This document shows positions 5,767-50,579 of a DNA stretch of 64,000 bases, piece by piece. Origin of the DNA: Rhizophagus irregularis. Its lineage: Eukaryota > Glomeromycota > Glomeromycetes > Glomerales > Glomeraceae. How positions within the stretch are numbered: position 1 is the stretch's first letter; each line of letters starts with the position of its first letter. The stretch is taken from positions 5,208,001 to 5,272,000 of the forward strand of contig NC_089429.1 in NCBI RefSeq assembly GCF_026210795.1, read 5' to 3'. The notes beneath the pieces were generated by a model. It worked only from the letters and a program-made list of their open reading frames with translations. It did no database searches and was not told the origin of the DNA. A program made the translations under genes and the position numbers.

Positions 5767-5848
5767 AAAAATATGGCGCGTCAGGTTTGTTACACGAATA
5801 ATATTAGAAGTTCCACAAAATTTAAAATTAGAAATTTAAAATACATAA

Positions 5849-6442: not shown

Positions 6443-6468
6443 ATATGATTTTTTTTTTCTTAACGTTA

Positions 6469-6655
6469 CAGCTGTTTTCATAAGACCTGGGACAAAATAA
6501 ATTTTTGAACCCGACCGCCGACCCACCGATCCGGTTCAGTTGTTATTTATTTTACAAATCAAACTATCAAATCAGGATCGCGTGCCCAGCTAAAAATACC
6601 GGATCGGCGGATCGGCGGATCGGGTTCAAAAATTCAGGTCTTATGAAAACAGCTG
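6469..6655. mobile_element. Pogo/Tigger-type MITE with long terminal inverted repeats
   Basis: A 187-bp element flanked by TA. Each arm is about 60 bp: CAGCTGTTTTCATAAGACCT at the left and its exact reverse complement at the right, followed in both arms by a TTTTTGAACCCGA-like stretch and CCGATCCG repeats (GGATCGGCGGATCGGCGG on the right). No coding capacity. TA duplication and a CAG start indicate Tc1-mariner/pogo mobilisation in trans. Confidence 0.8.
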
Positions 6656-6689
6656 TAAATAAAAAAAAAAATAATAATTTACATTCGTA

Positions 6690-8699: not shown

Positions 8700-8704
8700 T
8701 TGAT

Positions 8705-8765
8705 TAATATAACATTTTGATAAAGCTGTTGATACTCTAAAGGTGTACCTTCATGTATTAAGCGC
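8705..8765 (-). pseudogene. Short kinase C-lobe fragment
   Basis: On the minus strand GGTACACCTTTAGAGTATCA followed by ACAGCTTTATCAAAA reads GTPLEYQQLYQ, the alphaH/alphaI junction conserved in the kinases at 38.6, 39.7, 40.9 and 44.6 kb. Nothing either side stays in frame. A second minus-strand fragment of the same segment lies near 18220. Confidence 0.6.
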
Positions 8766-9504
8766 ACGATCCAGAGAAGATAAAATCATCTGTACGTTTC
8801 GGTAGAGTTAGTGTTGAGGGCGTTGATGTAAATAGCGAAAGTTATTTGTACAATTTGGTAAGGCTGTCCAAATGTAACATTCGGTTAGGATACTTCTTAA
8901 ATGATGTGCCACCTTTTGGCGTAGTAATTTTGCTTTTTTCTTGTTTCCGTGGAAAAAATTTCCTGATGTTTCAACTAAGAAATAGCTATTTTTAATTAAT
9001 TCGTGGAAAGTGACTTCTATTTTTACTCCTTCACCTAATTGAGCAATATCTAACAGTTTAGGTGTTTTACTTAGTAATAGTTACGGATGTAATATTGTAT
9101 GAAATATCCAGGTAGTTACTGATCAAAACAGACTTCGGTAACATGGGATATAGCCGATATACGAAGTGTTTAGGGGAGTTCATTTATACTGTTTTTTTTT
9201 TTTGCTTTCTTACATTGTTTTTATTTTTCAATTTTATTTGTATAAATAAAGTATAACGCTGTTTATGTTAAAAAGTGAAATAATTGAGAAGGATAAATCA
9301 TGAAGAGTAATGAATAGAATGTAAATGATGATAAGAGTAGAATGAAAAGAAAATGGACTCAGCTGTACAAAAAACAAAAAATGGGCTGAAACATTCATGA
9401 ATTAAAAAAAGTTTGCTGTTATGTAAAGAGTCATTAGTGTTTAAATATACGAAAATATTTTGCCTATTTATTTGTTCGCCAAGCATATTGTAAATAGTGA
9501 TTGT
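8766..9504. other. Intergenic region, no gene
   Basis: The minus-strand open frame at 9298-9486 has no family resemblance and biased composition. Some text at 8770-9180 is less A+T-rich than average and could be decayed coding sequence, but nothing is recognisable. Confidence 0.35.
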
Positions 9505-11534: not shown

Positions 11535-11688
11535 AAAAATTTATTTGTTTTGTAACATCCCACTTTTGGTTAAAACATTCCTTTTTAGTAATTCATTCAT
11601 AATAAATTGAAATAAAAAAAAATTGTCTAAAAAAAACCCGTCTATAAAATAAAATTTTTTTCTAGTAAATAAATTTCTAAAATTATCA

Positions 11689-14600: not shown

Positions 14601-15578
14601 TAGCAAATTTCTTGATGAGGTATATATAGTACTTATATTTAATAGTATATTTTACTTTCTTTTGCAAAAATTTAATAATTTTTTATTTATTTATAGTGGA
14701 AATATCATTATAGTTGTCAGAAAAAATCATTTTCAAAATTTATTCGATTATTTGGAATTACTCAAGATCCAAATAATTTAAATTATATAATGGTAATGAG
14801 CTATGCAGAAAAAGGAAGTTTGAGAAAATACTTATCTGATATAATTAAATTTAAGTGGCAAGATAAGTTACAATTATTGAAAAAAATAATATTAGGGCTT
14901 AAAGTAATTCATGAATCAAATTTAATTCATTGTGATTTTAATGATACTAATATTTTAATATCAGATAATTATAAAGAGTTATTTATTAGTGATTTTGGAT
15001 TATGTCAACCTATAAATGATTTACAAGATTCTGACAATAGAATTGGAGTTTTACCTTATATGGCACCTGAAATATTAAGAAAAAAGCACTATACTCCAGC
15101 AAGTGATATTTATAGTTTTTCAATAATAATGTGGGAATTTACATCAGGCATTCCTCCATTTAATTGTGTAGCACATGATCATCACCTTATTTTGAGTGTC
15201 TGTAAAGGGGAACGTCCTGAAATTATGAAAAATACTCCAAAATGTTATATAGATTTGATGAAAAAGTGCTGGGATTCAGATCCTTCCAAAAGACCAAATA
15301 TAGTAATTATTGAAAATACTATTTCTGAATGGATTAGATGTATTAATGAATATTGTAAAATAAACAGGAATAGAAAATATATCTATAGAGTACCTAATAT
15401 TAATAATCAATTAAAAAATGATATGAAAGAATTTGTAGAGGCAGACAAAGCTTTATTACCAGAACAAGCGAATATTTCTATTATGCAAGCTCATACACTA
15501 GCATATTTTACAAGTCGCAATCTTACTGAAATTTTAGATCCAAATACTGATTGTCTTGATTGTATTGTTGCTATATAA
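11689..15578 (+). CDS. Sel1-repeat / TKL kinase fusion protein
   Basis: Two exons, 11689-14619 and 14697-15578 (donor GAG/GTATAT, acceptor TTATAG/TGG); 1270 residues. Order: a cysteine module (CSYCNKPFIEELWCEEC, residues 24-40); about 22 Sel1-like repeats of 36 residues (consensus AMFNLAICYKNGEGTEKN + LEKAFYWYQKAAENGDER, residues about 58-855); a second cysteine module (CKECNQPYIDYKWCQQC); the linker and WIPYNKF; then a kinase domain. The kinase has a glycine loop YDKGGFSEIYKA, Lys in VILK, HCDFNDTN in place of HRD (Arg lost, Asp kept), DFG, APE (YMAPEIL) and CWDSDPSKRP, so it may still be active. Sel1 repeats are helical protein-binding solenoids. Repeats 17-20 are nearly identical at the DNA level, showing recent 108-bp unit duplication. 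Fusions of this kind are typical of glomeromycete genomes. Confidence 0.9.
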
Positions 15579-18270: not shown

Positions 18271-20765
18271 CTCTTTGATCACTAATAATATGATAACATA
18301 GTGTAAAGATACTGTACCGCACTGCACAAGATACCCCGGGTATAATATAAAACTCCCGATTTAAAAATTATAAAATACCGGGTACTTTGTGAGACAACGG
18401 GTATTATAAATGGTAGGATATTATGAAGCGGGGGGGTATAATAGGGAATACAAATCATCATCCCAATTTAGTAACATATCATATTGGTACATGTGTGCGA
18501 CACAAATTTATTATACAGTCAGCCCCCTCTACAATCACACCCCTCGGGACCATTCAATGATGTGATTATAATGAGGTGTGCCTATTGGTGAGGGTTTAAT
18601 TATATAATCACATATATATAAATTTTTAAATAAATGTGATTATATAAAAAAAAATCATCAAAAAAAAATTTTGTAAAAAAGTTTATATGTAAAATATACT
18701 TAAAATCGGCTAATTATTAAAGATATTATGCTAATTTTTTACAAATTTTTTGAAAAATAAAAAACTAATTTATCCCACCCACCCATACGATCTTTAGTTC
18801 TTTATATAGTTTTTTACTTTACACGAACGCGTATACAAATGCGACGCAAAAACTTAAAAAAAAATCGCGTCTTATGCACCCCTTAAAATTGCAATTACAC
18901 AACGAATTTAAATTTTGAACTTTATTATTATCTATTATTATATTAAACTATTAGTTTAAAAATGTATCAAGTATAGTTTGATTTTTAGAATTAAATGCTT
19001 TAAATCTCGTTACGCGCAAATACTTTTTAAAGATTTGTAAATCATTAAAATCAAAATCATCATCATTTTGTTGTTCAAAATATTTGATATACGTCTCTAA
19101 TAAATCAACGGCTTTTTTTGCTGATATTAAAGGTACTATTACATCATCATCGTCATCATCATCATCATCATTATTATTATCATCTTTCTCATTTTCATCG
19201 CGTTGTATAAAATTAATAATTTGTTCATCGGTAAGAACTTCTTCAGTTGGAATCTCTTTATCAAGCATTTGAAAATATTCCAATAGACCATCAGAATCTT
19301 CTGGTAATTCACTAAGAAGACTTTCAAGTTCGTTTAAATCCAAATCAATATCGATATCATTATTGTTATTTACATCATCAATATCATTAAGATTATCAGA
19401 TGGAAGAATACCCGTCTTAATCCAACAATTTTTAATAGTTGTTTGGGTAACATTATTCCAAGCATCGGCAATATAATCAATTGCCTCTTTAATATTCAAC
19501 TTATTCCTATGTAAACAATAATATTAGTTAAATATTATTTATTAAAATTAATTAAACAATATTTATAACTTACTTCCTATAATCTATTCCAAAATCAAAT
19601 TGTTGAATTAAATGTTTGCAAAACTCTTGTTTGTATTTAGATTTAAAACTATTAATAATTCCAGCATCCATAGGTTGAAGATGTGCTGTTGTATTTGGTG
19701 GAAGATAAGCCAATTCAATATTAGTAAGATTAGGTATATTTTTTTTTTGTTGTGTTTTATTTTTTTGCTTTTTTTTGTTAGATCCTTGCTCACTATTTTC
19801 TTCATTTGACATCTCATCATTACTAATATCATTATCATTTTTCTCAAACCTTTTTGGATTAAAATGAGAACCAGCATTATCAATAATCAATAATATTTTT
19901 TGATTTAATGTACGAAAATAATAATCAAGATGATTAAGCCATTCAACAAAAATATCTGAACGCATCCAAGCTTTGGAATTAGCTCGATATGTTACAGGAA
20001 GAGCTGATTTGTTAAAATTTTTAAAACATCGAGCATCAGCAAGTTTGAAAAGTGTTGATTCACACCAGTATACGCGTTGATCAACACCAGCTAGTTGTTC
20101 AACACATTTTACAATATTAATCAACACCCGTATACTGAAGTATACCAACGCATAATGTTAATATACGCGTCATTCAACTCTAATGTGTAGTTCAATGCAC
20201 TGTATATTAAGTATTAACACAACTAAATAAATTATATTAATTTATTTATTTTTACTCACCTTAGGAACCGAACCGGTTACCTCAATTACACTATTAATAT
20301 ATCAATCTCACGATCTAACCATTGTACTATTATAAGTATTTATTAAAATTAATATTAAGCATTACGTATTTTATGTAATGATATATCACGTGTGTCACGT
20401 GATACTGGATTAATAATTACCACTGCGCCACTGTGGTATAGCAAAAATTTTTTTAGCAAAGCTTAATTTTTTTGTTTTCCTTCGTTTTTCCCATTACCTT
20501 TCATTATCCCCTTCCCATTCGTTTTCCCATAACCCTTTCATTCTCCCCTTCATCCTATAAAAAGTTTTATCCGTTATTTATGTAAAAACTCTGTAAATTC
20601 CATAATATAAGGTTATTAATTCCTGAGATATGAGCCTTATACGGAAAAAAGTTGGAAGGTATCAAACTTCTGGTAAGTTTCGCAACGAAACATTGCGAAA
20701 CTACTTTTTCATTTTTTAACGAAACATTTTTTAGTAACGCTTCGAAATATTATTCTTATTTTTAA

Positions 20766-25001: not shown

Positions 25002-28000
25002 CTATCCTGGAGGTAAGCCTTTTTCCTCCGCCTTCCTTTCCTGTAACCTGCTGCTATTTTTAATACGTTGAAGTCTGTCAAACGTAAATTGTCTGAAATA
25101 AATGTCGCTAAGAGAACGAATGCGTGACGCCACTACGAATGTCAATCCTGCAGCGAACTCTTTACTTCCAATATCTATTTTAGCCTTTGACAACGTCAGA
25201 CCCTGACTTTTGTGCACGGTTATTGCCCACGCTAGGCAGAGAGGAACTTGTTGTCTGGAACATATCGTCCCAGACTTACCTTCCCAACTTCTTTTAATGG
25301 GTACTATTGGAACAACATGGTCTCCTTCTGTCGATGTTATGGTGGGTCCTTCATACGCGTCGAACTTGACGAAAACTGCTGCTGGAAGTGATGGTAGACC
25401 TTGATTTTTGAACAGTATGTCATGAACGGTTCCGATCAATCCGTTCACTAATCCTCCTTTGGTCCACAGGTTTGCTGTGAGCATTACTCGAGCTCCTTTT
25501 GCCAATAATAACTGAGGTTCAAGTCCCTTTGCCACATCCGAACTGGCTTTTTTGGCTTCGTTTCCGCCGGTATGAACTGCCATAATCTTGGCCACAGGTC
25601 GCTTCAAAGATCTGAGCTTCTCTATATTGATTTTGTCAACATCGTTCCACGTTGTTAATAAGAATACAGCATCTGAAAATCTTTCACATTCCTGCTGATT
25701 TAGATTCTCTTCGAACCGTGTACTGAGTATCTTCCAATCGTCAAGGCTGCTTTCCCCATCACGCATCCTTAGAAGTATGTCACGGAATTCTTTTTGTTCG
25801 TTTGAATTACCTGTTTGCCTTAGAATTACGTTGAGCTTGAATACTTCTCTTATATGTTTATATGCAGCTATACCTTTATTAGAATTTCCGTCTACACTTG
25901 TGTTCTTGAAGAACATAGGAACGTCAAGTACTGGCGGTAATTGACCAAAATCGCCAAGTAATATGATGGATCTTCCTCCGAAGGGCTCTTTGGAATTTTT
26001 GGGAAAAGCCTGTCTTAATCTCATGTCTATTACCGCGAGCATTCGACGTCCGACCATGCTTTTCTCGTCAATTATTAGATAAATTACTTTTTTTAACCTT
26101 TCTTGTAATTGTTTCAGTCGCCTGCTATCAAGTTCGAGGTTTTTTGGGTTGCGTATTGGTATGGAAAGCGTTGAGTGTATCATTGATCCATTTATATTAA
26201 AGGCTGCTATACCCGTAGGTGCGATAACCAGAACCGGAGAATCAGTATTGGTTCCTGCCATTTCGTGAAGTTTCTGCCATATCATCTTGATAAGATACGA
26301 CTTTCCCGTACCAGCGGTTCCCATTATCATAATCCTTAACGCTTTGACCTTCTTCCCGTTGAGAATATTATTGTAATGTGATTCTATTTGTGTGAAGATT
26401 TTTTTTTGATTTTCGTTTAACTTCCAGTAATCTATTGAATCAATATCAACTTCTCTTCCGTCTAATATCCCAGAATTCAAGGCGTTCTTAATGAATTCGT
26501 CAACATTAGCAATATCGTTATTGGAGTAGTTTTGTTGTGCGTCAGTTATCCAATCGTGATTCTAATCCATATCACGAGAACCAAGGTCGGATGCGCAATG
26601 TATGATCACTTTGGGTCCCATCTTTGCGAGCCGCATCCAGTCGTATCTATATTGTTCCTCATCCTCATCTTTGTCCTCTTCGAACGGTAGTTCGTCTTCA
26701 CTATCTTCATCATAAACCTCTTCTTCGTCAACGGGTTGTCTGAGCAAGTCCTGTGGTGCATCGTTTATCGTATCTATATGTTGATCGTATAAGGTAGACA
26801 AATTGATATTGCCGTTTTCTGTAAGTACTTGCGTTTTGCGATGTCGGACGTGGAGTAGAACTTTACTCTGCAATAAGCCTCCCATTGATCTCCGTTATGA
26901 TAAGATGATGGACGAGGCCAGACGCGAACTATGTTTTCTTTCTTACACTTTTTCCATTGACCCCTGGAAAACCTATGCGTAAGGTATAATTCAAATAACG
27001 AATAATCTTCTAATTCTTCTGGTCGTTCCCAATATCTTTTTAAAGCTGATTGAGTTGTACGTCCAGTGTCTTCTACATTATCTCCACTACCTGTTCTTTG
27101 GATCCACCTTAATCCTTCCTCGTTAACATTTAAAGATACAAAGGAATGACTTGAATGATATAGTGCAGTTCCATTAAGGAGGTGACAGGTTTCCTGAGCT
27201 GATATGTCGCGTTCCGACACGCTGTTGAGTAGGAGTTTCTGAATTGGAGAAAGTGAAGAATCGTCAGGATTGCTGTTGTCAAGAATTTGCTTGAAGATCT
27301 CAGAGAATGCCAGTGAACTTGGTTCCGCTTTACTGGCATATTTTGATATATATTGGAGCGCTGCGTGAATGCTAAGAATAGGCTTTAAATCCACATTTGC
27401 TCTCCATCCCTGTAGCTGTATTCTGTTATGTGGATTAATGTAAGGATTGTTTCTTGCCATAAGTAATTCTGGCTGCCCGTTTTTATCATCACGTATTAAT
27501 GTGCTTCTGATGTGTTCCTTAGGGTACCCAAATCTACATGTTTGCACTCCTTCACGATTTGTGCGTATGCAGTACGATGGGCTGCATCTCGTGTGATGCT
27601 GAAGTTTGTTGATTAATTCGATATAATCTTGTAAGCCATCATCGATTTCACTGCTATCTTTTTGGCATGGGTGCTTCTCAGGTACGGGTGCATGTATTGC
27701 TGGATTTATTGTGGTGATTATAGAATCAATGTAATCAATTACGTTCTTCATCTCTTCTTCGTTGTTTTTTAAATTCTTCCATTCAATAGTGGGTGCGTTG
27801 CATTTCTTTCCAATACCGTGCACGTGGACGCTCCCTCTGTGCTGCCATTCATACCGAAACCACCAGTCCTCGAGGTCTCATTTTTCCTTAAGCACATTAT
27901 TAAAAAAACTTTCGAATCTTTTGGTAAAGAACCAAGCCGCGATATGAGGGTTATTAATGACTTTTGATTGAGCGTCTCCATCATCTGGCATGAGTCGATG

Positions 28001-29622
28001 AAGGTTAGGCCAGTGAAAGTCTGCTGTGCGGAATGTATAAAATATTAGACCTTTGTGTCCTATTTGCTTTATCATGTCTGTAAGTTCACCACGTTTTGCT
28101 ATCCAAAATTGCCTTGTCCCTCTTAGCCCTTCCCCGTATCTCATTATTCTGTCTGCTAATTGTTGATCTCCATTGGATATCATCTCTAGAATGTCGGACA
28201 CGTCAAGCTGTTTTTCGCTTAAATTCCGTCGGACATATACCTTTCCTTCTTGCAAATCTCTCCATCGCATCGTAGAATTTAATGCGAAGTACCTTCATCT
28301 CGAGTGACGTCCAAATCGTCCATCTTTGAACCAGAGTAAGTGTTTAAAATACTCTGCTGGCTTGATATCTAGTGGACGATTAGATCTGAGATCACCTTTT
28401 CCATATGGATATAGAGTCGGAAACGCCCTCGCAATATACCCTGGTGTTTGGAATTCGTTTATTGGACTTCCGTCAATCTCAGGCCACAATACTGGTTGCT
28501 CGTTGCTTTGTATGCGATCAAGTGTATCGTTAATAATGGCATTTTCTCTTTGCGTTGAAGGTAAGGCAGGCACAAACGAACGAGTTATTGCGTCGCTCTT
28601 GTCGTGTCCATTTTCATTTTTGTTTTCGTTTGAAATATCATCCATCTCATCAATTATTTGGTCAGATCTTATCTGATGTATCTGATTAATGATAGAACCG
28701 TTTTGAGGTAATGATTTAAGTATTTCATCGTCAATGATTATATCTTCGTAATAAGGGTTATTTGCTTTTAACCAATATAGCGCTTTTGCTATTTTTTCGT
28801 GGCGTACGGTGAAATCTCTAAATCCTGATGTGTCGTTTGCTGATTCTCGTCGCACTACTAGAATGTCTAATGATGAAGGATTTTGTGAAAGGCGCCTTGT
28901 GAACTCCCGAACGTCTTGCGGAAATTAATCACATTGTCTTTGTAGCCGTTTTGTCCACCTTGTAATCGATATACTGACATCACCATAAAAACCTGCGCAA
29001 TGAGCATCTCTTCGATGTTGGTAAGTCCCTGAAGTTCATCAGGAACCTCGCCTGGGTCCATGTTATTATCCGCAGAAAATTTTTTTGGTGTCTTTTTGTC
29101 GTTGTGGTAATGACGACACTCGCCCATGATGAGAGTCATATCGGGAATCCGTTCGTTACATTCGGGGCAAGTATTATACTGTATGTTATCCATTTTGTTA
29201 CAAAATTTCTGCAATACTTTGTGATCGTCCTCGCTAATATTAGTAGACGATGTTGACCTGACATGCATGTTTCTATTATCAGGCTCTCTTTGAATATGTT
29301 CATTATCATTTGGTTCGTTTATTTGCTGATCTTGCAGTTGATTCTTATTACGAGCTCTCAACACGCGTTTACGATTACTTTTATGTGCTAAGCGAATAAC
29401 ACGTTCATCGTCCCTCTCCATTTCTTTTTTATTATTTCTTCTTTTGCGAAGGCTTTCTAGACGTTCATTACGTTTATTTTCACTTTCTTTCGCTCACTTT
29501 TGACGTTTTCTTTCACTTTCTCGATTTAGTCGAGCTTGCCTTTGTTCCGGCGTCTCCTGTGCTTTAGCTTTTCGCTTTCGAATCATTTCGGGATTAACAT
29601 TTTCGTATGTATTGTCAGACAT
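25002..29622 (-). pseudogene. Helitron Rep/helicase gene, broken
   Basis: One gene of about 1540 codons read from an ATG at 29622. Order: basic arginine-rich N-terminus; a cysteine domain (CPECNERIP...GECRHYHN) usual at the start of fungal Helitron proteins; a Helitron-like N-terminal domain (ADFHWPNLHRLM); the Rep HUH motif (HRGSVHVHG near 27825); then a Pif1-type helicase with Walker A GTAGTGKSYLI, IIDEKSMVG, LLGDFGQLPPV and WAITVHKSQGLTL. Breaks: in-frame stops at about 29494, 28295, 27878 and 26562, plus frameshifts near 28925 (one base lost before PQDVREF) and near 26860. It is dead but fairly young. Codon composition is less A+T-rich than the neighbours. Ends of the element were not resolved. 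Confidence 0.92.
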
Positions 29623-31226: not shown

Positions 31227-32713
31227 ATGGTTCGTGGAAATTTTCAAGTTCGTCGTGCTAGAGTTTCACAGAAAAAAAACGTCAATGGTCAGCAAGAGAA
31301 AAGTTAATGATAATCGCAAATTATGAGCAAGGTCATAGCAAGCGGTCAAAGCAGATAAATTCGAAATTGAACCAAAACAACTTTGTGAATGGTTAAGGAA
31401 TAAAGATCAACTTATGAAAGTAGCTCCTTATGTTCAAAAACTTGTCCGAGGTGCACGCCCAAAATACCAACAGCTTGAAGTTGAGTTAATGGAATGGTTT
31501 AAAGACTCACGAAGACAGTTAAAAACTGTTTCATGTTACATGATTCAAGCAAAGGCGCGCTCCCTAGCCAAAAAACCAGTATATTTAAGGGTATATCCAG
31601 ATATAAAAGAGGCGAAATTTTCACAAAAATGGGTTGATGGGTTTATGTCCCGTCATAATTTAGTTAACAGGAGAAAGACAACAATTGCTCAACGGCTTGA
31701 TGATTATGTTAAGCAACAAAATCAATTTTTATCTTATGTTCTTTTTCGTAGAAGAGAACATAACTACCCATTATCTTTAATTGCAAATATGGATGAAACG
31801 CCTATGGCGTTTAATTTGACAAGTAACACAACAGTTGAACATCGTGGTACTAAATCCGTTTCTATTTTATCTACTGGGCATGAACGCTCAAATTTTACTG
31901 TTGTTTTAGCTTGTATGGCCAATGGTGAAAAATTACCACCAGTAATTATTTTCAAACTTGTAAATGTTCCGCGAGAAGATTTTCCTGATGGAGTAATTGT
32001 TCGTGCTAATCCCAATGGTTGGATGAATGAAGAAGAGATGTCTTGGTGGTTAGAAAATATCTGGACAAGACGCGCAAGACAAGGCACAAACCCAAGATCT
32101 CTTTTAGTGTTAGATTCTTTTTCTGCACATAAAACTGATGCTATCAAACGTCGATTTCGTAGAAAAAATACCGATTTGGCTGTTATTCCAGGTGGATTAA
32201 CTTCTCGCTTACAACCACTTGATGTATCATTGAATAAACCTTTTAAAGCTAAGGTAATTTTATTCATCAAAATTTTTTCATTATTTTAAACATAAAATTG
32301 ATATTATTTTTGAATAAATTAGATGCGACATCTTTACAATCACTGGATGAATGAAACCGTTAAAGATTATACTCCATCAGGAAAAATTAAGAGGCCATCT
32401 TACTCACTTGTGGCGAATTGGGTAAAAGCAAGTTGGGATGCAATTGATCCCAATATGATTATGCGTTCATTCAAATGTTGTGGTGTTTCAAATGCAATGG
32501 ATGGGTCGGAAGATGGTTTGATATCCAATTTTAATAAAGTACAAAATGTAAATAATACAGGGAGAGGAATCGAAGAAGAAGATGAAAGTTATGAAGGAAG
32601 TAGTGATAGTGATTATGAAACAGATGATAATAGTGAATATAGTTCGGATGGTAGTAATAGCGAATGCTCAGATTGTGATTATTATGAAAGAAATGAAGAG
32701 CGTAATGTGCTTT
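31227..32713 (+). pseudogene. Pogo-like DDE transposase of element A, frameshifted at the 5' end
   Basis: The main part (about 31354-32252, intron 32253-32322, then 32323-32713) reads a CENP-B-type DNA-binding domain (LMEWFKDSRRQLKTVSCYMI, WVDGFMSRHNL). The DDE core follows: NMDETPM, LLVLDSFSAHKTDAI, SRLQPLDVSLNKPFK. An intron and C-terminal NHWMNET...VANWVKASWDAID and an acidic tail (YEGSSDSDYETDDNSEYSSD) complete it. The start at 31227 (MVRGNFQVRRARV) runs out of frame at a run of eight A (31272-31279). The next block (QWSAREKLMIIANYEQGHSKR) shifts again near 31347 before ADKFEIEPKQLCEWLRNKD. The two slips, one in a homopolymer, mean it is dead or affected by sequencing error. Confidence 0.85.
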
Positions 32714-33563: not shown

Positions 33564-35896
33564 TTATTTTTTAAAAGATAAAAAATTTTCCTTTCTGTAT
33601 ACTTCTGTTACTTTAAATCGCTCTTCAATATCATAGTGTCGTTGTTCCTTTTCCTTAAAATTTTGATCTAATGAATGGTAAAATAAATAAATTGATTCTT
33701 TTATTTCAAAAGTATTTGGTCTATTATCCGGATTTGGATCCCAACACTTCTTCATTAAGTCAATATAACATTTTGGTGTTATTTTATCATTAACTTCAGG
33801 TCTAATTCTATTACATATATCTAATGCTAGATGACTATCATGAGCACGATTACCAAAAGGTTGTTTTCCTGTCGCTACAAAATACATAATCATGCCAAAG
33901 CTATATATATCTGCTGACTGAGTATAAAGTTTACCTTTTAATACCTCAGGAGCTACATAAGGCATAACTCCATAAATTTTAGTTTCATCTATATTACAAA
34001 CTTCTCCACATAATCCCATATCTGAAATATACACATTGAAATCCTGTACGTTATCTGTTGAAAATAATATATTTCCTGTATGAAAATCACGATGAACCAT
34101 CTGTTTTTGATGAATTTTATCAAGACCCTCAATAATATTAGTTAATATTTTTAATCCATTAAACCAATCAAAATTTTCCAGATTTTTATTTATATAATTA
34201 TTTAAACTTCCACCTTTTGCATAATCAAGGACCATAATATAATCCTTTGTATCTGGATTTTGAGATATTCCATATATATTGATAATAAATTCAGAATTTA
34301 ATATTAAATGTGCTTTAACCTATAGAAACATAAAAATGTAAAATATTGTTAAATAAACAAAAAAGGTAAATTCTAAAATTTATCATGACATTTCATACCT
34401 CATTTAGAATTTCATTAGTAGTATTTTGAGAGTTATACAAAATTTTTAGAGCAACTTCTTTATTGGATTTTCTTATCCATTCCTTTTTATCATCAAAGTA
34501 ATATATTGGACCATCTTTCCATATTGCTGAATGTACTGTAGAAAACCCACCTTTTCCTATTTCTTTAACATTACTAAAATGATTGTATGGTATCAAATTA
34601 AAATTAATATTCTTTGATCCATTGCTTGTTCGCATTTCCTGAATGAAACTATCAATTTTTTCATTTCTAAAATGGCTATACCATTCATACTGCATATGAT
34701 GACATGGGTTATACCATTCATACCGCATATCTATATATGTTTTTTCACATTTTACACATTTTTCATGATATTTATCTTGAATAATCATAACATAAACTTT
34801 TGTACGAGGATTTTGGGATATTCCATATATAATATTATCATCATAATAATTGATCGAATATGTTTTAACCTATTAAAGTATGAAAAAAAAATCAGACAAA
34901 AAAAAAATATTAAATCAATAGAAAATTTCGTACCTCATTTAAAAAAAATTCATTAGTTGCATTCTGTAAACATTTCAAAGCAACTTTTTTATTTGGTTCT
35001 CTCGTCCATCCAGTCGTATATTCATAATGTAATGGGCCATCCTTCCATATTGCTGAATATACCACACAAATATTATCTTCGCCTATTTTATTAATATTAT
35101 CAAACCGATCATATGGTATCCATTCAAATACTATAGTACATGAATTACTAACACTTAATTGCATTTCTTGAATGTAATTATCGACTTCTTTATTTCCACT
35201 GTTACCATTTATAAAATTTTTTCTTATAAGATTAATATGACATGAGTTACACCATTTATGTTCTATTTTTGTGCTACAACAAATTTTACAATATTTTTTA
35301 AAATATTCATTATGGAGAACCATAATATAATCTTTAGTATCTGGATTTTGAGAGATTCCATATATTTTAAGGATATTATTTGAACAATCAACTGAATATG
35401 TTTTAACCTATTATAAAGAATTTTATTGTCAAATTTTTTTTTTTAAAAAAAATTAAATTAAATTAAATAATATAATTTTCACCTCATTTATAATTTCATC
35501 GATGTTATATTGTAAATTAAACACACATTTTAAAGCAACTTTTTTACCAGACACTCTTGTTAATTTTCTTTTTAAATAACTGTAACTTAATGGACCGTCC
35601 TTCCATATTGCTGAATATACCTTAGAAGAATTACCTTTCACATCTTCTCTAATGTTATCAAACTGATTGTATGGTATCCATTCAAACACTATGTCACTCG
35701 GACCATCAATTTTTGATCGCATTTCTTGAATTAAACCATCAATATTTTCATTTCCACTGGTCCAATTTGCAAAATTTTCTTTTAAATATTTTGCTTGACA
35801 TGGTTTACACCATTCAGACTCCGCATTTAAATCATCTCCATAATGTTCACCACACTTATCACATTGTCCCCAATGAATTTGAGATGTCGATGACAT
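33564..35896 (-). CDS. TKL kinase with three tandem N-lobe modules and one C-lobe
   Basis: Exons 35896-35483, 35407-34934, 34869-34399 and 34319-33564; 704 residues, all introns phase 0. It is a paralogue of the gene at 2.6-5.7 kb. Exons 1-3 each carry a cysteine module (CDKCGEHYGD...WCKPC in exon 1), the IQEM linker, I PYN/D-F box and a kinase N-lobe; exons 2-4 begin with the beta4-beta5 segment (IYGISQNPDTKDYIMVL). Only the third N-lobe has an intact glycine loop (GKGGFSTV); the first two read DVKGNSSKV and GEDNICVV. Exon 3 has lost some zinc-ligand cysteines (WYNPCHH...WYSHF). The C-lobe keeps HRDFHTGN, a DMG in place of DFG (Asp kept), YVAPEVL and CWDPNPDNRP, so this paralogue could be catalytic. 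It lies head to head with the gene starting at 36230. Confidence 0.82.
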
Positions 35897-36095
35897 TATG
35901 CCTTGAAGTCTTTGAAGTCGTAAAGCGTTAAAACAATGGATATCAAACTTTATTAATAGTATAATCGTTAAAAGCTACAATTTTCAAAATATATGCTGGA
36001 TATATACAACAATATACGGGTACTAAAAATTTTTTACTAGAATTTTGAAGAATAAATATTTTTTTTTTTTCAAAGAAAATGAACGAACGCCATGC

Positions 36096-36229: not shown

Positions 36230-39200
36230 ATGGATGAAAATACGGCTAATGGTGGGCAATCTGATGAAGAAGAAATCGTATCAATAGAAATAGAAGGAGA
36301 ATCAAAATTTTTGCCATTTTTTTTATCGCTTATAGAAAAATTGAGCAATATATATGATGAAATGATAGAAATATGTCAAACAGCGAAACATAATAAAGAG
36401 TCTTGTGAGTTAATATTAAATAGAGTAGGAAAAGCTGACATGTCTTTAAGTAATCTGAAAACTTACAGAAAAGGAAATTTAGAATATTTTTCAGAAGAAA
36501 ATTATAATAACTTGCATAAATTAGTTACTATTATAGGTAAAATGCGTGAATTTCTTACAAATCATTATAAAAAAAATCCTGAAGATTTAAGTAATGAATT
36601 CGATTTTACGGTTCAACTTCTGGATTTGAATTTAGAAACCCCATTTTCAAATTTTTTACCATGTGATAAAAATTTGAAATTCTTGCCGCTTATAAGAGAA
36701 GTGACCAAAATATATGACGAGATATCAGAAATACATCAATCAGCTCAATATAATAAAAAAACATGTTTGTTAATGTTAAAAAAAGTAGAAATAGCTGTTA
36801 CGGCTTTGAATAATTTAAGAATTCATAGTAAGGAAAATTTTAGATATCTTTCAAGAGAAAATTATATTAATTTATGTAGTTTAATTACGATTATTGGTAA
36901 AATATGTAAATTACTGACAGAAATTTCTCGGTTCGAAAGTTACCAGAAGTTTATTCAAATTGAAAAAAATATTGAAATTTTTAGAGGTTTAAATAATGAT
37001 TTTAATTCTACTGTTCGACTTCTGGATTTTTCTTTAATCATTTCACCTACCGATTCACTAGTTTGTACCGGAACAGAATCCGCATCTAAAATAGAAGTAC
37101 CATTTGCAAGTTTTTTATCACTTATAGAAGAAATGAACAAATTATATAATGATATAGTTGAAATACATGAGAATGCGCAATATAATAAAAATACATGCGA
37201 GACAATGTTAGAAAGAGTACGAATAGCTATCACAGCTATAGGAAATTTAAAAATTCGAAATTTAGAATTTTTTTCGAAAAAAAATTTTAATAATTTTCAT
37301 AATTTAGTAGCTGTTATTAGTGAGATGCGCCATTTTCTTGCAGATATTTCTCAAGGTTCTAAAAAATATGTTCAGGCTAAAGATATTAATGAAAAATTTA
37401 TTAATTTGATTGACGAATTTGAAACTGCCATTCGACTTCTGCAATTTCATTTAATTATTTATTTTGCTGCACGTGATAATGATGATGAGAATGAAAGGAT
37501 TAGAGCTGATATCGAAGAGGTAAATACCAATCAATCCTTTCAACCGTTTTAAATTTTTTTTTTTACTCAATGTATATTTATCTAAAATTAGGAATGGATC
37601 AAAAAGAAAATAGAGGATGCAGATATTCTTTATTTTGAATATAGCGAATTTATTGGAATTGAAGAGATTGGCAAAGGAGGATTCGGTATTGTGAATAAGG
37701 CGGAAACTAGTGATAAAAAACTAGTTGCATTAAAAGGCCTTATCGAAAAGAAAAATTCAAAATTTGAAGAAAATATTATTAAAAGTTTTGTAGAAGAGGT
37801 AAGAACTATATTTATATTATACACTGGGCGTACAATAGAAAATATTAATGTTACCTTTTTTTAGTTAAAACTCCTTCGTACTATTAGTTATCACGATAAT
37901 ATCAATAGTTTTCTTGGGATAACAAAAGGTGTGTACTGTTTTTTAAATAATTTAAATAATTTTCAAATATATCTAATGGTTTAATAAATAGATTACGCTG
38001 AGAATTATATTATGGTATTGGAATACGCCAATAATGGAAATCTAAGAGATTATCTAAAAGGAAAATTTGATTCATTGCGATGGGAAAATAAGATTCAAAT
38101 GGCGTTGGATATCACATGTGGGTTAAAATGTTTACACTCTAAGAATATAATCCATAGAGACTTGGTAAATTAGTAATTTATTTTTGTAATATTTTGCTTA
38201 AATGATAATTCTTAATAATATTAACAATTATCTTTATAGCATTCAAAGAATATATTAGTGAGTGATGGTAAATTGTTAATTGCCGACTTTGGATTATCTA
38301 AACAAATAACAGAAGCTACGTCTAATTCAAAAGCTAATAGCATTGGAATTATTGAATATGTTGAACCACAATGTTTAAAGAGTGTACGTAATGCACACTC
38401 CTTTTATAAAAAGGATCAAAGGTCTGATATCTATAGTTTAGGTGTTTTATTATGGGAAATTACAAGTGGACGTCCTCCTTTTCACAACACAGAAGAACGA
38501 GATTGGTTAGGTTATCACATTTATCATTCGGATCTTAGAGAAAATCCAATTGAAGATACGCCTTTAGAGTATAGTCGACTTTATCAAAAATGTTGGGATG
38601 GTGATCCAGAGAAAAGACCGGATATTGATCAAGTATATGACGATATATTTAGTCAATTTAATGAGGTAATAATATTATTAAAATTTTTTTTTTTAAGAAA
38701 TTACTCATGATACATTATCGCACTTTAAATTAGGAATTTATCAAAAGGAGAATGAAAGAGGAAAAAATTCGTTATTTTGAATATAGTGAATTCAATAATA
38801 TTAAAATAATTGGTGACGGTGTTGTGAATAAAGCAGAAGCATATGATAAAAATCAGGTTGCACTAAAATGTTTCATCCAAAAGAAAAGTCCGGCATTTAA
38901 AGAAAAATTTATTGAAAACCTTGTAAAGCAGGTGAGAATTATCTTTAAATCCATCATCATAGACATATAGCATGTTATATAACATTGGAGTCATATTTCG
39001 TTTTTAGTTGAAACTCCTTTACACGGTTAGCCGTCACGAGTACATCAATAGTTTTTTCGGAATATCGAACGGTTTGTGCAGTTCTGCTAATATCTTTAAA
39101 TAGTTATATGATAAATTTTATTAATTTTAATTAAATTTTAATGAACAGATAATATTAGTTATTTCATGGTGTTTGAATACGCAAATGATGGAAATTTAAG

Positions 39201-41271
39201 AGATTATTTGAAAGAAAAACTTAATATATTACAATGGGAAAATAAGATTCGAATGGCGTTGGATATCACATGTGGATTAAAACATTTACACTCTATGAAT
39301 ATAATTCATAGAAACTTGGTAAATAAGTTATCTATTTTTATAAGATTTTTTTAAACGATAATAATCCTAATAACAATAATAATTATCTTTATAGCACTCA
39401 AAAAATATATTAGTAAACAATGGTAGATTATTAATTGCAGACACAGAAGCTATACCTAAATTTGGAATACCTAAAATAAAAGATGAAAAAAAACATAAAC
39501 TAACGGATAATAGAATTGAAATTATTGGATATATTGACCCACAATGTCTTAAGGATATAAATTATAAAAGAGATAAAAAGTCCGATATCTATAGTTTAAG
39601 TGTTTTATTATGGGAAATTACAAGCGGACGTCCCCCCTTTTCTAACATCTCACAAAAAGAAGGTAGTTTACGTGATGACATTGGTCATAAGAATCTTAGA
39701 GAAAAACCAGTTGATGGTACACCTTTAGAGTATCAACAACTTTATGAAAAATGTTGGGATATTGATCCAGGGAAAAGACCCGATGTTGATCAAGTTTACA
39801 ATGAAATTTTAAGTCAGTTTAATGAGGTAATATTATTTATTTCAAAAAAAAAATTAGATTCTATCCTTTTTAAAAATTATTCATTACGCATTGCTGCATT
39901 AAAAACTAGGAATTGATCGAAAGGAAAATGAAAAAAGAAGACGTTCGTTACTTTGAATATAGTGAGTTTAACAAAGTTGAAAAAATTGAAGGAGGACACG
40001 GTGTTGTGAATAAAGCGGAAACTAATAAAAAACAAGTTGCACTAAAATATCTCGTGGGAACTAAAATTTCAAAATTTGAAGAAAAGGCTATTGAAAACTT
40101 GGCAAAGCAGGTGATAACTATATTTAAATTTGTCGTATTATAAAGTGTACATATAGCGTATAATAAAAAGATTGATATGTTTCTTTTTTAGTTAAAATAC
40201 TTTTGCACAGTTAGCTGTCACTATAACATCAATAATTTTCTTGGAATTTCAAAAGGTTTGTGTCAATATTTCTGAATAGTTATATTTATAAAATTCGTTC
40301 TAACTTATGTTGAGTAGATGATATTGCTTATGTCGTGGTACTGGAATACACCAATAATGGAAATTTAAGAGATTTTTTAAAAGAAAATTTTGGTTCATTA
40401 CAATGGGAAAATAAGATTCGAATGGCGTTGGATATTACACGAGGATTAAAATATTTACATTCCAAGAACATAATCCATAAAAACTTGGTAAATAAGTTAT
40501 TTATTTTTATAGTATTTCCTTAAATGATATCAAGTTTTAATAACGCCAAAATTATCTTTATAGCACTCAAATAATATATTAGTGGATGATGATAAATTAT
40601 TAATTGCGGACTTTGGATTACTTAGACCAGCTACATCTAATTCAAAGGGTAATATAATTGGAAACATTGGGTATATTGACTCGCAATGTTGTAAGGATAT
40701 ATGTCATAAAAGTGATAAAAAGTCCGATATCTATAGTTTAGGTGTTTTATTATGGGAAATTACAAGCGGACATCCTCCCTTTTATAACATCTCACAAAAA
40801 GGAGATAGTTTATATGATGACATTGGTCATAAGAATCTTAGAGAAAAACCAATTGATGGTACACCTTTAGAATATCAACAACTTTATGAAAAATGCTGGG
40901 ATGGTGATCCAGGGAAAAGACCTAATGCTAATCAAGTTTACAATGAAATTTTAAGTCAAGCTAATACCGAGGATACCCACGAAAAACATGAAGATTCCTT
41001 GGTGACTTCTAATAGTAATAATTTTAATGATTTAGAATATCAACAACTTTTTGAAAAATGTTGGGATGATGTTCCGGGAAAAAGACCCGATGATATTCAC
41101 GAAAAACATGAAGATTCCTTAGTGATTTCTAATAGAAATAATTTTAATGATTTACATAAACAATCAGGCCAACCAGATCTATGCATAGAAAACAAGGAGA
41201 CTAGCAACTCTCTATGCATAGAAAGCGATTTTATGTTATCTAAAAATCAAAATCAAATAATGTTTAATTAA
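36230..41271 (+). CDS. Triple tandem TKL kinase with three MLKL-NTD-like helical domains
   Basis: Thirteen exons, 1388 residues, frame kept throughout: 36230-37519, 37592-37798, 37865-37928, 37992-38164, 38240-38665, 38734-38931, 39008-39071, 39149-39318, 39395-39826, 39910-40110, 40192-40255, 40318-40487, 40564-41271. Exon 1 (1-430) has three copies of a four-helix-like domain at about 27, 145 and 290 (L.LI.E..K.Y.EI.EI...A..NK..C). It resembles the MLKL N-terminal domain found in many glomeromycete TKL kinases (recognised by pattern, not searched). Kinase 1 (about 445-715) is complete: GKGGFG, Lys478, HRD (Asp577), DFG (594-596), CWDGDPEKRP. Kinase 2 (about 721-1008) has a shortened loop, HRN (Asn863) and DTE for DFG. 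Kinase 3 (about 1009-1260) has HKN (Asn1152) but DFG. All three share the same intron positions, so the exon set was triplicated. The first ATG was chosen as start. Confidence 0.85.
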
Positions 41272-42528: not shown

Positions 42529-44798
42529 ATGAATGAAAATAATAAAAATTTAGTTGATAATAATCAAGCACCAACATCCGATAATGCTGTAGATATCGTA
42601 GCAAAAGGTTTAATGAGTTCAGATTCGAATTTTTTACAATTAATAGAAGAAGTGACCAAAATATATAATGAAATAGTAGAAATATATCAAACAGCAGAAC
42701 GAAATAAAAAAATATGTGAAGATATATTAAATAGGGTACAAGTAGCTGAAGCATCTGTAAGAAATTTAAAAGATCGTAAGGAATTTTTTACAGAAGAGAA
42801 TTATATTAAATTATATAGATTAGTTAATATTATACGTAAAATGCGACAATTTCTTGTAGAAATTACTCAATTAAAAGGTCTTAAAAAATATATTCATAGT
42901 AAAGCTATTCAAGAAATTTTTAATAATTTAGTTAATGAATTTGAAGCTACCATACGAATTTTACAAGTTTCTATATCCTTAGAATCATCAACTAGCGCGG
43001 AAGAATTAACGCTCAGTACAGTTTGTGCTGGTAGAGAAGCTGCATCTAAAGTAGAAATACCATTCGCAGATTTTTTACAACTTATAGATGAAGTGACCAA
43101 ATTATATAATGAAATAGTAGAAATATATCAAAAAGCTGAACATAATAAAAGAATATGTGAAGCAATGTTAAATAGAGTAAAGATAGCTGATACGGCTTTA
43201 AAAAATTTAAGAATTAGAAATTTGGATTTTTTTTCAAAAAAAAATTATGATAACTTTCGTAATTTGGTTATTATCATTAAAGAAATACGTCAATTTCTTA
43301 TAGAAATTACTAAATCAAGTGGATTTGAAAAACTTACAGGGACTTCATCAATTAACGAAAATTTCAGTAATTTAATTGATAAATTTGAATCTGCTATTAA
43401 ACCCTTGCAATTTTCCTTAATTATTTATTTTAATGCTGATGATTATAAAAAGGTTAAAACTGATGTCAAAGATTTAACTGCTGAGGTAAATTATTATTAG
43501 ATAATTTATTATATTCTTTTTTTTATTAAAAAAATTACTCACGATAAATTACTATACTCAAAAACTAGGAATGGATTAAAAAGAAAATGAAAGAAGAAGA
43601 TATCAAATATTTTGAGTATAGTGAATTTAACAAAATTAAAAAAATTGGCGAAGGAGGATTTGGTGTTGTGAATAGAGCGGAAACTAATGATAAAGTACAA
43701 GTTGCACTAAAAGGTCTTATCGAAAAGAAAAGTTCAAAAATTGAAGAAAATGTTATTGAAAACTTTGTAAAGGAGGTGAGAATTACTGTGTATTTTAGAT
43801 TCCCCGTATTATATAGCGAGGCGTTTAATTAACGTGATCCTTTCCTTAGCTAAAGAATCTTCGTAAGGTTGCTCATCATGTTAATATCATTAGTTTTCTT
43901 GGAATATCAAAGGGTTTGCATTAAGATTTTTTAAGTAGTTTATTTAATTCATCCTTTATCAGCTAATATTAATCTTTTCATTACCGGTTTTAATTATATT
44001 AAATTTAAATGTATAGATGATATTGGTTATGTCATGGTATTGGAATACGCCAATGAAGGAAATTTAAGGGATTATTTTAAAAGAAAATTTGATTCATTGC
44101 AGTGGGAAAATAAGATTCGAATGGCGTTGGATATTACGTGTGGATTAAAATGTTTACACTCTGACGGCATAATCCATAGAGACTTGGTAAATCATTAATT
44201 TATTTATTATAATATTTTTATTATAATATTACGTTAATTAATATTGTAATTATCTTTAAAGCACTCAAAAAATATATTAGTAAATAATGGTAGACTATTA
44301 ATTGCAGATTTTGGATTGTCTAAGCGATTAACGGAAGTTACATCTAGTTCAAAATCTAATAATATTGGAATTATTGAATATGTCGAACCACAATGTTTAA
44401 GGAGTGTAAATTATGTAAAAGATAAAAGGTCTGATGTATACAGTTTAGGTGTTTTATTATGGGAAATTACAAGTGGGCATCCTCCCTTTCATACGGTAGA
44501 ACGAGATATGTTAGGTTATCATATTAGTCATGAGAATCTTAGAGAAGAACCAATTGATGGTACACCTTCAGAGTACAGACAACTTTATCAAAAATGTTGG
44601 GATGGCGATCCAGAGAAAAGACCTAATATTAATGATGTATACAATGAAATTTTACGACAATATGCCAATGATGCTAACGAACAACAAGAAGATCCATTAG
44701 CTGCATCTATTAGTGATAATCTTAATAGTTTATATAAACAATCAGGCCAATTAGGTCTATGCATAGAAACCTGCTCGATTGACTGTAATCGTCAATAA
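42529..44798 (+). CDS. TKL kinase with two MLKL-NTD-like helical domains
   Basis: Exons 42529-43485, 43569-43775, 43850-43913, 44017-44186 and 44262-44798; 644 residues. Exon 1 holds two helical domains (about 33-150 and 172-300; LIEEVTKIYNEIVEIYQTAE and LIDEVTKLYNEIVEIYQKAE). The kinase (about 333-600) is complete: GEGGFGVV, VALK, HRDL then HSKNIL, ADFGLSK, CWDGDPEKRP; VEP stands where APE is usual. Intron positions and phases are identical to each kinase unit of the upstream gene. The C-terminal tail (SLYKQSGQLGLCIE) is shared with the end of that gene. Close tandem paralogue; probably the ancestral one-kinase form. Likely cytosolic Ser/Thr or Tyr kinase; substrate unknown. Confidence 0.88.
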
Positions 44799-47601: not shown

Positions 47602-49577
47602 TTAGATGAAAAAATTTCCATGTTGATCATCCACCACATTTTTAATTTGTATTTTCTCATTCGTATCATTAATCTGTATTCCTACAAACTTTCCATTTCT
47701 CACCAAATTATCCATAGTAGGTCCAATAAGTTTTCTAATAAAATCAACAGCAACTTCCCTTCCACCATCCATAATTATAGCTGCCAATAATGACGTCAAA
47801 ACATTAGCTATTTCTTTTTCACTCAAAAATGATTTTCTAGCATAAACTAGATCTTGTAATTTCAACATCTTGGCAAATTTACAAAGTCTATAATTACTAC
47901 ATAAATAATTGTGAATTTGTTCAAGTAAATCCGGTGTTAATTGATCTTTAAATTTTTCATACGCCATTTGTGAAATTGTTGTACTTAAAATACAATCACC
48001 AAAAATTTCAAGTCTCACATAATCAAAACAATTTTGATGATCAGGGAGAACTGATCTGTGAGTGAGAGCTAACTCCAAATACTTTGGATTTTTAAAGACA
48101 GGTATTTGAACTATAGACGACCCAATATGATCATTTTGATCATTCGAAAAGGCTTGATAAAAAATATTATTAAAAAAGTTATAAATAAATAAATTAATAA
48201 ATTAAAACAAAAAATATTATATTATTTTTCATTACCGTATGAATTTCGAAAACTTGATGAGGAACGTTCGCTACCTTTAACACGTTTTTTGGAATTTTGA
48301 CCATCATTATCGAGCTCTTCTAATCGATGTTTAGCAGTATTCAACATAAATTTTTTGAAATCATCCCGATCGAACCAATTTATCATTAAATTATCTTGAG
48401 TTTGAACAGATTTCAATCTAGAATTTAAAGAAATTCTTTCGTTCATTACATTATTTTCATCATCACTTAATATAGGCGATTTTACTCGTGGTCTAACATT
48501 ATCATCGTTATCTAAATCAATGGGAAATTCTGGAGTTCCGAATTGTGATCTTGCCTGTTTACCCTTCTTTTTGTTCTTTTTGTTCTTTATAAAAGAAGTT
48601 TTATCAGTATTGGCAATATTTGTTACGACGGCCAACTCTCCTTGCGTTATTGAAATTTTCTGATCTTCTTTGCATGTATTTAAACGATTTTCTTGAGATG
48701 ATTGAACTTGAGCTTGAGATGATTGAACCACTGGTGATGAAGAATCCTGTTCAAAACAAAATTTATCAATTAAAGTGATCATAGACCTTCGCGCATCTTC
48801 AACAGCTTTATGAAAAGGTTCTATCGAATCCTGATTCGACTTTTGTTGCGATTTTATATCAGGAATAAAATTATCATCTGAATTTGAAGAATCTGTTATA
48901 GTGTTATCATGTATATCACAATCTTCTGGTAAAGTAGAAAATTCTGCAGCATCAATTTCAAAACATTCTTTTTCATTAAATTCTTTATTATCAACTTTAT
49001 CGGAAATTTGAAAATTTTTTTCAGCAGGTTTTGTTGAAACTGAATCTAATTCTGTATCAGTATCCATTTCAATAAATTCATCAGATGAATAACCGGATTG
49101 AATAGGATTCTTCATAATAGCCGCTTTATAAGCTTTATATCTTTTACGATAACTTTCACTAACAATATCTGAAGGAATTTTTAATTTAAATATAGGAACT
49201 TTCTTTTGTGAAGGTTTTTTTGATCTTATAAATGTTTCTGGATTATCAAATTTTTCAGTTTCATTTTCTAAATTTTCTAATGATGGTTTCTTTCGAATTT
49301 TTTCATCTTTTTCATTTTTTGATAAATATTTATCATCAGATTTTGTCAATAAATCTCTTGTAGTAGTAGTTGTAGTTGTAGTAGTATTTGTTGTATTTGT
49401 TGTATTTGTTGTTGTTGTAGTTGTTGTTGTAGTAGTATTTTCTATAATATTATTATTATCTTTTTCAGATTCTTCTTCATTTATAGTAGCCTGAGGATTA
49501 CTACAATCTTTATAACAACATAAACTATGAATAATACCCTTTTTATCAGTTACCATGTAATGACTGTGAAACACCAT
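47602..49577 (-). CDS. RNase III-fold protein with long disordered N-terminus
   Basis: Exons 49577-48236 and 48152-47602 (donor GTAATG, acceptor TATCAAG); 630 residues. Residues 1-447 are low complexity: a short Cys-containing start (HSLCCYKDCSNPQ), a Thr/Asn tract, acidic/Ser stretches and a Lys-rich patch (KNKKNKKKGKQARSQFG). The RNase III fold spans about 470-600: ELALTHRS, YVRLEIFGDCIL (Glu496, Asp500), LTPDLL, NYRLCKFAK, EKEIANVLTSLLAAIIMDGG. Compared with E. coli RNase III, the E41 and D45 equivalents remain, but D114 is Asn564 and E117 is Thr567, so cleavage is probably lost. No double-stranded RNA-binding domain follows. It may be an RNA-binding or structural protein, as in mitochondrial ribosomal RNase III-like proteins, though the long acidic N-terminus is unlike those. 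The start at 49577 is the first ATG in frame. Confidence 0.8.
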
Positions 49578-50579
49578 TTTTTGTTTTGAAAGGGTTTGAA
49601 AGTAAAGTTATATTTGTCACATGTAGGGATTATTGTGGTATTTATATGTTTTGAAATGATCGACATATGTTGTACTGCACCATAAGCCGCATATTGAAGG
49701 AAACAATGATGAGTTACGTAATATTTTGAAGGGATGAAAAAAATATTTCTATATATAGAGATATCATATGACGTGTGGCACTCCATTTAATAGTTAATCA
49801 CGTGTGAAGTTCCAATTTTCTAACCAATACCAGTAATACACATAATTTTACACCCAATGAGCGATGAATGGACGGATTTCAAAAAATCAAAAAACAAACC
49901 ATTTCAAAAAATATTAGCCAAAAGCACATAATTTTGAATGAATAAAAAATATTATTATCTTTAAATTACCGAAATTACCGGATAAAATAAGGTTAATAAT
50001 AATAAGACTTGCATCATTACATACTTAATTTGATCGGAGTTAATTTATTTACGTGATTTACGCTCCGACCTCCGAGAATTTTATAGTTTTTGTAATACTT
50101 GATGACGTAGTAAAATATTTTTAAATCTAAACATTTGAAATTTTTTTTTTTTTTTTTTGACGATTAAAATTTTTTAACAAATAAATAAAATAAATTTCAC
50201 CATAAAACTGTTATAATAAAGCAGAAAATTTTATCATTTATGGAAAAAAAAGGTTTACTAAAAAAAACGAGTACTTAAGTCGAGATGACTTAAAATGTAA
50301 ATATTTCTTTTTTAGTTCAATACTTGGTAGGATACTTGGTAGGATAATTGAATCGGACGCCATATGATCAGTGAAATGCGTGATTTATTTGATATTAATT
50401 ATAGAAAATATGCGAGAACGTAAATTTGTATTAATTTTTAGTTGCGTTAATTAATGATATTGATAAAAATATACGTGTAAAAACTAAAAACTAATTTATA
50501 AATGATTAACCTGATAAAACATGAGAATATTTGATAAATTTACATTTAAAAGAATTTTTTGTAAATTTTTTTTATTGAC
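49578..50579. other. Intergenic region, no gene
   Basis: Upstream of the RNase III-like gene; probably holds its promoter. A poly-T run of about 18 lies at 50139-50158. The open frame 49550-49786 overlaps the gene start in another frame and is not supported. Confidence 0.4.

Follow-up and report, generated by a model that had tools for sequence, protein, structure and literature searches.

A Rhizophagus irregularis gene with three MLKL-type helical bundles, an active-type kinase, and two pseudokinases, and the gene family around it

Animal MLKL carries an N-terminal four-helix bundle followed by a kinase-like domain. Phosphorylation of the pseudokinase is described as releasing the bundle, with oligomerisation and membrane damage to follow (PMC12881547). 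Proteins with HeLo, HELL, and Goodbye domains (HET-S, HELLP, and the N-termini of nucleotide-binding leucine-rich-repeat proteins, NLRs) are fungal members of the four-helix superfamily and have been linked to incompatibility death in fungi (PMC9815663, PMC12881547), and a 2025 review places some fungal HELL domains in kinase or pseudokinase proteins (PMC12881547). In wheat, the proven resistance gene Pm13 (AelMLKL) joins one MLKL-type bundle to one plant LRR_8B-type kinase with all key residues. The bundle and the intact Ser/Thr kinase are both needed for resistance, and Pm13 acts with cell death, the bundle's own role being left open (PMC10951266). Plant tandem kinase proteins such as WTK3/Pm24 and WTK4 hold a kinase and one or more pseudokinases in one chain (PMC10951266). 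Among the fungi covered by a 2022 survey, homologues of the MLKL family (TCDB 1.A.105) were reported in Glomeromycotina only, linked with Sel1 repeats and with programmed cell death as a putative role (PMC8778642). Here we describe a gene of the arbuscular mycorrhizal (AM) fungus Rhizophagus irregularis that lies at 36230-41271 on the plus strand of a 64,000-nucleotide stretch (hereafter the window; assembly GCF_026210795.1, contig NC_089429.1, positions 5,208,001 to 5,272,000). This focal gene is one intact gene for three helical bundles, one active-type kinase, and two pseudokinases (Table 1).

Splicing of the genomic DNA joins 13 exons into a single frame of 1388 residues, just as a first-pass annotation made from the letters of the sequence had read it. 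All the exons have GT-AG borders, and the frame closes with a stop codon at 41269-41271. Exon 1, of 430 residues, is followed by three kinase units (K1, K2, and K3) of four exons each. The 12 introns are 62-83 nt long, with positions and phases that match across the three units. Pfam searches of the whole protein placed the kinase family PF07714 in three stretches (E 1.1e-134), and MLKL_N (PF22215) scored 29.1 bits against a cut-off of 27.

The first pass had seen three MLKL-like helical domains in exon 1, and several comparisons agree with it. MLKL_N exceeds its cut-off on exon 1 alone, so that a likeness to this class of fold is present. Taken singly, the bundles H1, H2, and H3 (12.9, 18.4, and 20.7 bits, the last with E 0.0003) all score below the cut-off, and the family call therefore rests on the set of bundles and on their relatives; H1 is assigned as a bundle mainly because of its likeness to the other two. 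A profile of 30 bundle domains of the family, searched against the PDB, had MLKL at ranks 1-7 of its 11 matches. An AlphaFold2 model of H3 had the MLKL executioner domain as its best structural match, and two short helices after the bundle, candidate counterparts of the brace helices that connect bundle and kinase in MLKL, align to MLKL up to residue 147, in a region where the predicted local distance difference test score (pLDDT) is about 59-75. A model of the bundle and pseudokinase of one relative, L041, was weak (pLDDT 53.7). Unlike the HeLo/HELL proteins, the focal protein carries kinases instead of an NLR, and its exon 1 matches MLKL_N and not the HeLo profile PF14479, for which Pfam gave no match there at E<=1; that profile matched one of the 30 family bundles (best E 0.0011). 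The ratio of nonsynonymous to synonymous substitution rates (dN/dS) of the bundle exon is 0.55 (0.43-0.73) between the focal gene and its relative L033, and 0.71-0.87, with intervals that include 1, between bundles compared within one gene.

The kinase motifs are also as first read. K1 keeps GxGxxG, VALK, HRD, and DFG. In K2 the glycine loop is shortened, HRN replaces HRD, and D-T-E stands in place of DFG; K3 has HKN with DFG retained. The change from HxD to HxN is common to K2 and K3, and at what we take to be the alpha-C position K1 has Glu where both of the others have Gln. Because of these two common losses, K2 and K3 are counted as pseudokinases. In the kinase tree they are sisters, with a support of 100, on a shared stem. 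The exon for the C-terminal lobe (C-lobe) of K1 had an MLKL pseudokinase as its sole PDB match within the limit of E<=1e-12 (4.5e-13, although no single stretch reached that limit by itself). The nine best PDB matches were MLKL both for the C-lobe of a relative, L038 (best E 1.1e-16), and for a 16-member C-lobe profile (best E 3.7e-20), an EGFR construct coming next in the latter. Against this, the best 60 of 320 PDB matches of the whole K1 do not include MLKL and favour EGFR, JAK, Roco4, and CTR1, with RIPK1 lower; the pseudokinase of L045 likewise prefers CTR1, with MLKL absent from its best 60; and for L041 a double EGFR construct ranks above MLKL. The kinase-like part thus appears to be a TKL-like kinase with a lean toward MLKL in its C-lobe.

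Compared with the described systems, the focal gene shares with animal MLKL the order of N-terminal bundle and kinase-like domain, and its bundles and K1 C-lobe find MLKL as their best PDB match. It differs in having three bundles and not one, an intact kinase next to the bundles, and two extra pseudokinases placed last. Because the kinase adjoining the bundles keeps GxGxxG, Lys, HRD, and DFG, we do not file the gene as MLKL proper; the MLKL-like pairing claimed in the first pass stands for its parts and fails for their order. As in Pm13, bundle and intact kinase share a single protein, with one bundle and one kinase in the wheat case (PMC10951266). The focal chain also has the make-up of a tandem kinase protein, with at least two kinase-type domains, K1 intact, and K2 and K3 without the catalytic Asp. 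Unlike the plant proteins, it has added bundles, and its three kinases are duplicates within a fungal family, a result of the kinase tree that speaks against the plant-type tandem kinase suggested at first. The Glomeromycotina homologues of the 2022 survey come from the same fungal group and probably overlap the focal family; the domain anatomy given in the parts of that survey consulted here is Sel1 repeats, with no pseudokinase motifs or tandem forms given there (PMC8778642). Thus the family of this supposedly undescribed system is partly in print (PMC8778642, PMC12881547). We found no description of multi-bundle, kinase-plus-pseudokinase proteins of the focal form in the open-access literature, and what is new is this variant, MLKL-like proteins in Glomeromycotina having been published already.

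The combination of bundle and kinase, which the first pass had noted in this gene, proved to be widespread in the genome. A search with H3 gave at least 127 matches at E<=0.001 (a few with stops), falling into at least 117 clusters, and at least 87 of these 117 are followed on the same strand, within 2.5 kb, by a kinase-like match. Among the matches listed, a kinase-like match lies within 2.5 kb upstream at 18 of the 117 clusters, and downstream on the opposite strand at none, a zero to which the 36 remaining rows add nothing and which serves as a control within the scored match lists and not for kinases at large. These counts are lower bounds, since 150 of 2,931 and 132 of 3,209 first-look candidates were scored, and matching the pseudokinase query is not in itself proof of a pseudokinase. 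Twenty loci were fetched around bundles, two of which hold genes of the window itself; the kinase-like frame is downstream of the bundle in 19 and upstream in one, L031. In a scan from the catalytic motif to DFG, with a pattern that does not demand loss of the Asp but is shaped on the pseudokinase motif and blind to intron-split motifs, 27 of 37 loci were readable and the DFG Asp was lost in all 27. Its place is taken by Asn-Phe in 24 loci, Asn-Ile in two (L024 and L026), and Gly-Phe in one (L050); MLKL from the PDB has Gly-Phe at the aligned place. The 10 unread loci include the active-type L033, L034 (the focal gene), L035, and L037, where an intron splits the motif. Two opposite-strand scan matches, at L042 and L049, were set aside as not being kinases. 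The 27 relatives are likely to be catalytically silent, which falls short of proof because most keep HxD. Judged from these comparisons, bundle plus kinase is a large family. In most of the members that could be read, the kinase domain paired with the bundle is DFG-less and MLKL-like, and the focal gene is a variant of the family that carries an active-type kinase.

Within this family, K2 and K3 evolve under a relaxed constraint. Their dN/dS is 0.66 (0.43-1.05), compared with 0.59 for K1-K2 and 0.56 for K1-K3, and the 13 pairs involving K2 or K3 span 0.48-0.66. K1 and the kinase of the neighbouring paralogue give 0.34, the neighbour and L032 give 0.26, and 14 of 15 active-type pairs lie at 0.26-0.41, the remaining pair (L037-L032) being at 0.54. 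In bootstraps dN/dS stays below 1 in 99.75% (K1-K2) and 99.8% (K1-K3) of replicates, and for K2-K3 it reaches 1 in 3.5%. Neither K2 nor K3 has a stop or a frameshift, whereas a simulation of neutral substitution at the K2-K3 distance, with indels outside the model, gives about eight stops per copy and a probability on the order of 1e-6 of none in both. From the ratios and the missing stops we conclude that the constraint is relaxed and not absent, and simple pseudogene decay was rejected on the same simulation.

The structure of the gene bears on how the extra units arose. The K1 and K2 units end at an AATGAG|GTAA splice donor, at the point where K3 and the neighbour continue into a tail, and the next kinase unit starts after an intron sited like the bundle-kinase intron, with the repeat family D10. 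This fits a tandem duplication of the block from the bundle-kinase intron to the end of the kinase. The junction introns are slightly above chance in identity (0.56-0.67, shuffled mean 0.54, maximum 0.64). Because they barely exceed shuffled ones, the breakpoint rests on the splice structure and D10. That K2 and K3 are products of duplication within this fungal gene family is supported by the sequence comparisons. Most simply, one copy of the kinase would have lost catalysis first and then been doubled into K2 and K3, since their two common losses most simply predate the split, so that the dead unit would itself have been duplicated. In the bundle tree the focal H2 pairs with the H2 of L033 (support 96), and the focal H3 pairs with the H3 of L033 (79) and then with the second bundle of the neighbour (88). 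These pairings make the three-bundle form older than the split between the focal gene and L033, which lies about 51 kb away. Among the loci fetched, only the focal gene has three kinases along with bundles. A decayed three-bundle-plus-kinase copy with broken frames lies about 148 kb off (L051, C1:5089000-5098900, at 6736-8815), which suggests birth and death within the family cluster at C1:5.09-5.31 Mb. Beside the decayed copy is a kinase that has both HRD and DFG and was matched over its later two thirds only.

By analogy with animal MLKL, we infer a mechanism for the focal protein that we consider evenly poised between right and wrong. At rest, the kinase block would hold the three bundles shut. 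A trigger would switch K1 on, probably in a multimer, and K1 would phosphorylate itself and the activation segments of K2 and K3, in cis or in trans. The phosphorylated K2 and K3 would serve as phospho-switches and the kinase block would open. The freed bundles, three per chain, would then assemble on the membrane and breach it, and the hyphal compartment would be killed or sealed off. Three bundles per chain could, we conjecture, lower the number of chains needed per pore. A cell-death function of the protein is a well-founded guess, and its autoinhibition, phosphorylation, membrane damage, and trigger would follow the steps described for MLKL (PMC12881547). More tentatively, the protein may be a self-contained necroptosis-like device in one chain. 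It would then be among the more elaborate products of some ninety or more MLKL-like AM-fungal genes that together respond to non-self or damage, and this repertoire may be the missing basis of incompatibility after fusion.

The charge of the bundles, which is not consistently basic, would suit a protein that signals and does not kill, in which the bundles multimerise or dock as coiled-coils do, K1 signals onward, and K2 and K3 are allosteric or docking parts within a huge kinase repertoire. The kinase adjoining the bundles is intact, which sets it apart from the 27 that could be read in relatives, and pseudokinases and kinases also seem to stand in tandem in chains that give no bundle match, as at L052. 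R. irregularis is reported to have 2,533 kinase genes (PMC10234402), and a role in perceiving the environment has been put forward for its high-copy genes, among them kinases (PMC8647823). However, bundle and kinase-like C-lobe point to MLKL independently, and Pm13 acts with cell death while needing both its MLKL bundle and an intact kinase, the role of the bundle being left open (PMC10951266). We regard a purely signalling role as possible, if doubtful.

It is unlikely that K2 and K3 serve no purpose and are tandem copies on their way to being lost, with three bundles and K1 as the working protein. Their missing catalytic motifs, the higher dN/dS of the pairs that involve them, the K2-K3 bootstraps that reach 1, and the decayed copy at L051 would all agree with it. 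The open frames of K2 and K3, the bootstraps of both against K1, and the common losses that most simply predate their split speak for copies that have been kept. A wrong joining of separate genes, in which two kinase genes or pseudogenes would stand behind a bundle-kinase gene, is very improbable. The focal gene is known from genomic DNA alone, and the neighbour and L033 carry a single kinase each. However, no stop codon lies between the kinase units, the introns there (68 and 83 nt) have proper borders and the phase of the bundle-kinase intron, and the first two units end at a splice donor and not in a tail like that of the neighbour and K3. On this continuous frame and these introns, three separate genes were rejected, and the single gene of the first pass was upheld.

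The family around the focal gene is larger news than the gene itself. In AM fungi, retraction and septation have been seen after hyphal fusion, and death of the sealed-off region has been proposed by analogy with Neurospora (PMC12712441); a large MLKL-like family provides definite genes for testing how these fungi keep individuals apart after fusion. That an early-branching fungus combines a bundle with a DFG-less kinase domain suggests that the pairing of executioner and pseudokinase either predates vertebrates or evolved more than once. Animals split the roles between RIPK3 and MLKL, whereas L032, L036, and, in a different order, the focal gene unite an executioner, a pseudokinase, and an active-type kinase within a single chain. 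The focal pseudokinases are of the gene's own making.

Table 1. Positions in the window of the parts of the focal gene and of its neighbouring paralogue (pTM, predicted template modelling score).
Feature	Position	Strand	Evidence
Exon 1 (430 residues), coding for the three MLKL-type bundles	36230..37519	+	Frame open, with a GT donor at 37520; MLKL_N (Pfam) at 34.7 bits in two stretches
Bundle H1, the shortest and least well matched	36284..36655	+	MLKL_N E 0.08; 49% identity to H2, 42% to H3
Bundle H2	36656..37096	+	MLKL_N E 0.0016; groups with L033 H2, support 96
Bundle H3 and trailing helices	37097..37519	+	AlphaFold2 pLDDT 83.9, pTM 0.80; best structural match MLKL executioner domain
Kinase 1 (K1), catalytic motifs intact	37592..38665 (37592-37798, 37865-37928, 37992-38164, 38240-38665)	+	Exons, Pfam, motifs
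Intron joining K1 to K2, likely copy of the bundle-kinase intron	38666..38733	+	Spanned by repeat family D10; identity slightly above shuffled
Pseudokinase 2 (K2): short glycine loop, HRN, DFG destroyed	38734..39826 (38734-38931, 39008-39071, 39149-39318, 39395-39826)	+	Motifs; sister of K3, support 100
Pseudokinase 3 (K3): HKN, DFG kept	39910..40959 (39910-40110, 40192-40255, 40318-40487, start of 40564-41271)	+	Motifs; tree
C-terminal tail and stop codon	40960..41271	+	Internal duplication 120 nt apart, repeat family D14
Neighbouring paralogue, two bundles and one active-type kinase	42529..44798 (42529-43482, 43569-43775, 43850-43913, 44017-44186, 44262-44798)	+	Hand-set borders; repeats common with the focal gene; MLKL_N 30.0 bits; kinase motifs intact

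Several relatives have layouts of their own. L032 (C1:2346290-2354706, at 1387-4397, plus strand) carries a single bundle, then an MLKL-like pseudokinase with HCD and ANF, and then a kinase of the active type, joined in phase 0 via a small exon and in frame as read by eye. L036 (C1:394451-404124, at 4432-8246, minus strand) has four bundle matches to the family profile, of which Pfam MLKL_N sees three at E<=0.01, one of them above the cut-off, followed by a pseudokinase with HQN and TNF and a kinase of the active type with HRD and DFG. The C-lobe of this pseudokinase and the N-lobe of the kinase share one exon, and executioner, pseudokinase, and activator are apparently in cis there. At L052 (C10:2817000-2823600, at 1021-5218, minus strand), three pseudokinase-like units and one active-type kinase stand behind a cysteine-rich start, as read by eye in unspliced DNA, and at five further places on C10 two or three kinase matches stand close together in an array. 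A motif S-x-Q-x-[DG]-L-[CF]-I was seen by eye at the otherwise divergent C-termini of five active-type members (window 40900-41271 and 44700-44798; L032, L033, and L037); LCIE is doubled in that of the focal gene.

The G+C content along the window is 22-40%. On the minus strand, genes at 33564-35974 and 2635-5706 repeat a unit that resembles a kinase N-lobe, starts with C-x2-C, and contains an IWKDGP stretch; a single C-lobe follows the repeats. Pfam found 21 Sel1 repeat stretches in a plus-strand frame at 11656-15575, which is followed by a kinase-domain frame. DDE_1 transposase pieces at 19573-20157 and 31339-32286 lie near the kinase genes. A PIF1-type helicase at 25005-26561 is within a block of large minus-strand frames (25005-29493) that we presume to be Helitron-like. 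A Ribonuclease III domain (Pfam Ribonucleas_3_3, E 1e-15) lies at 47605-48201 on the minus strand, adjoined by a long low-complexity frame at 48222-49607.

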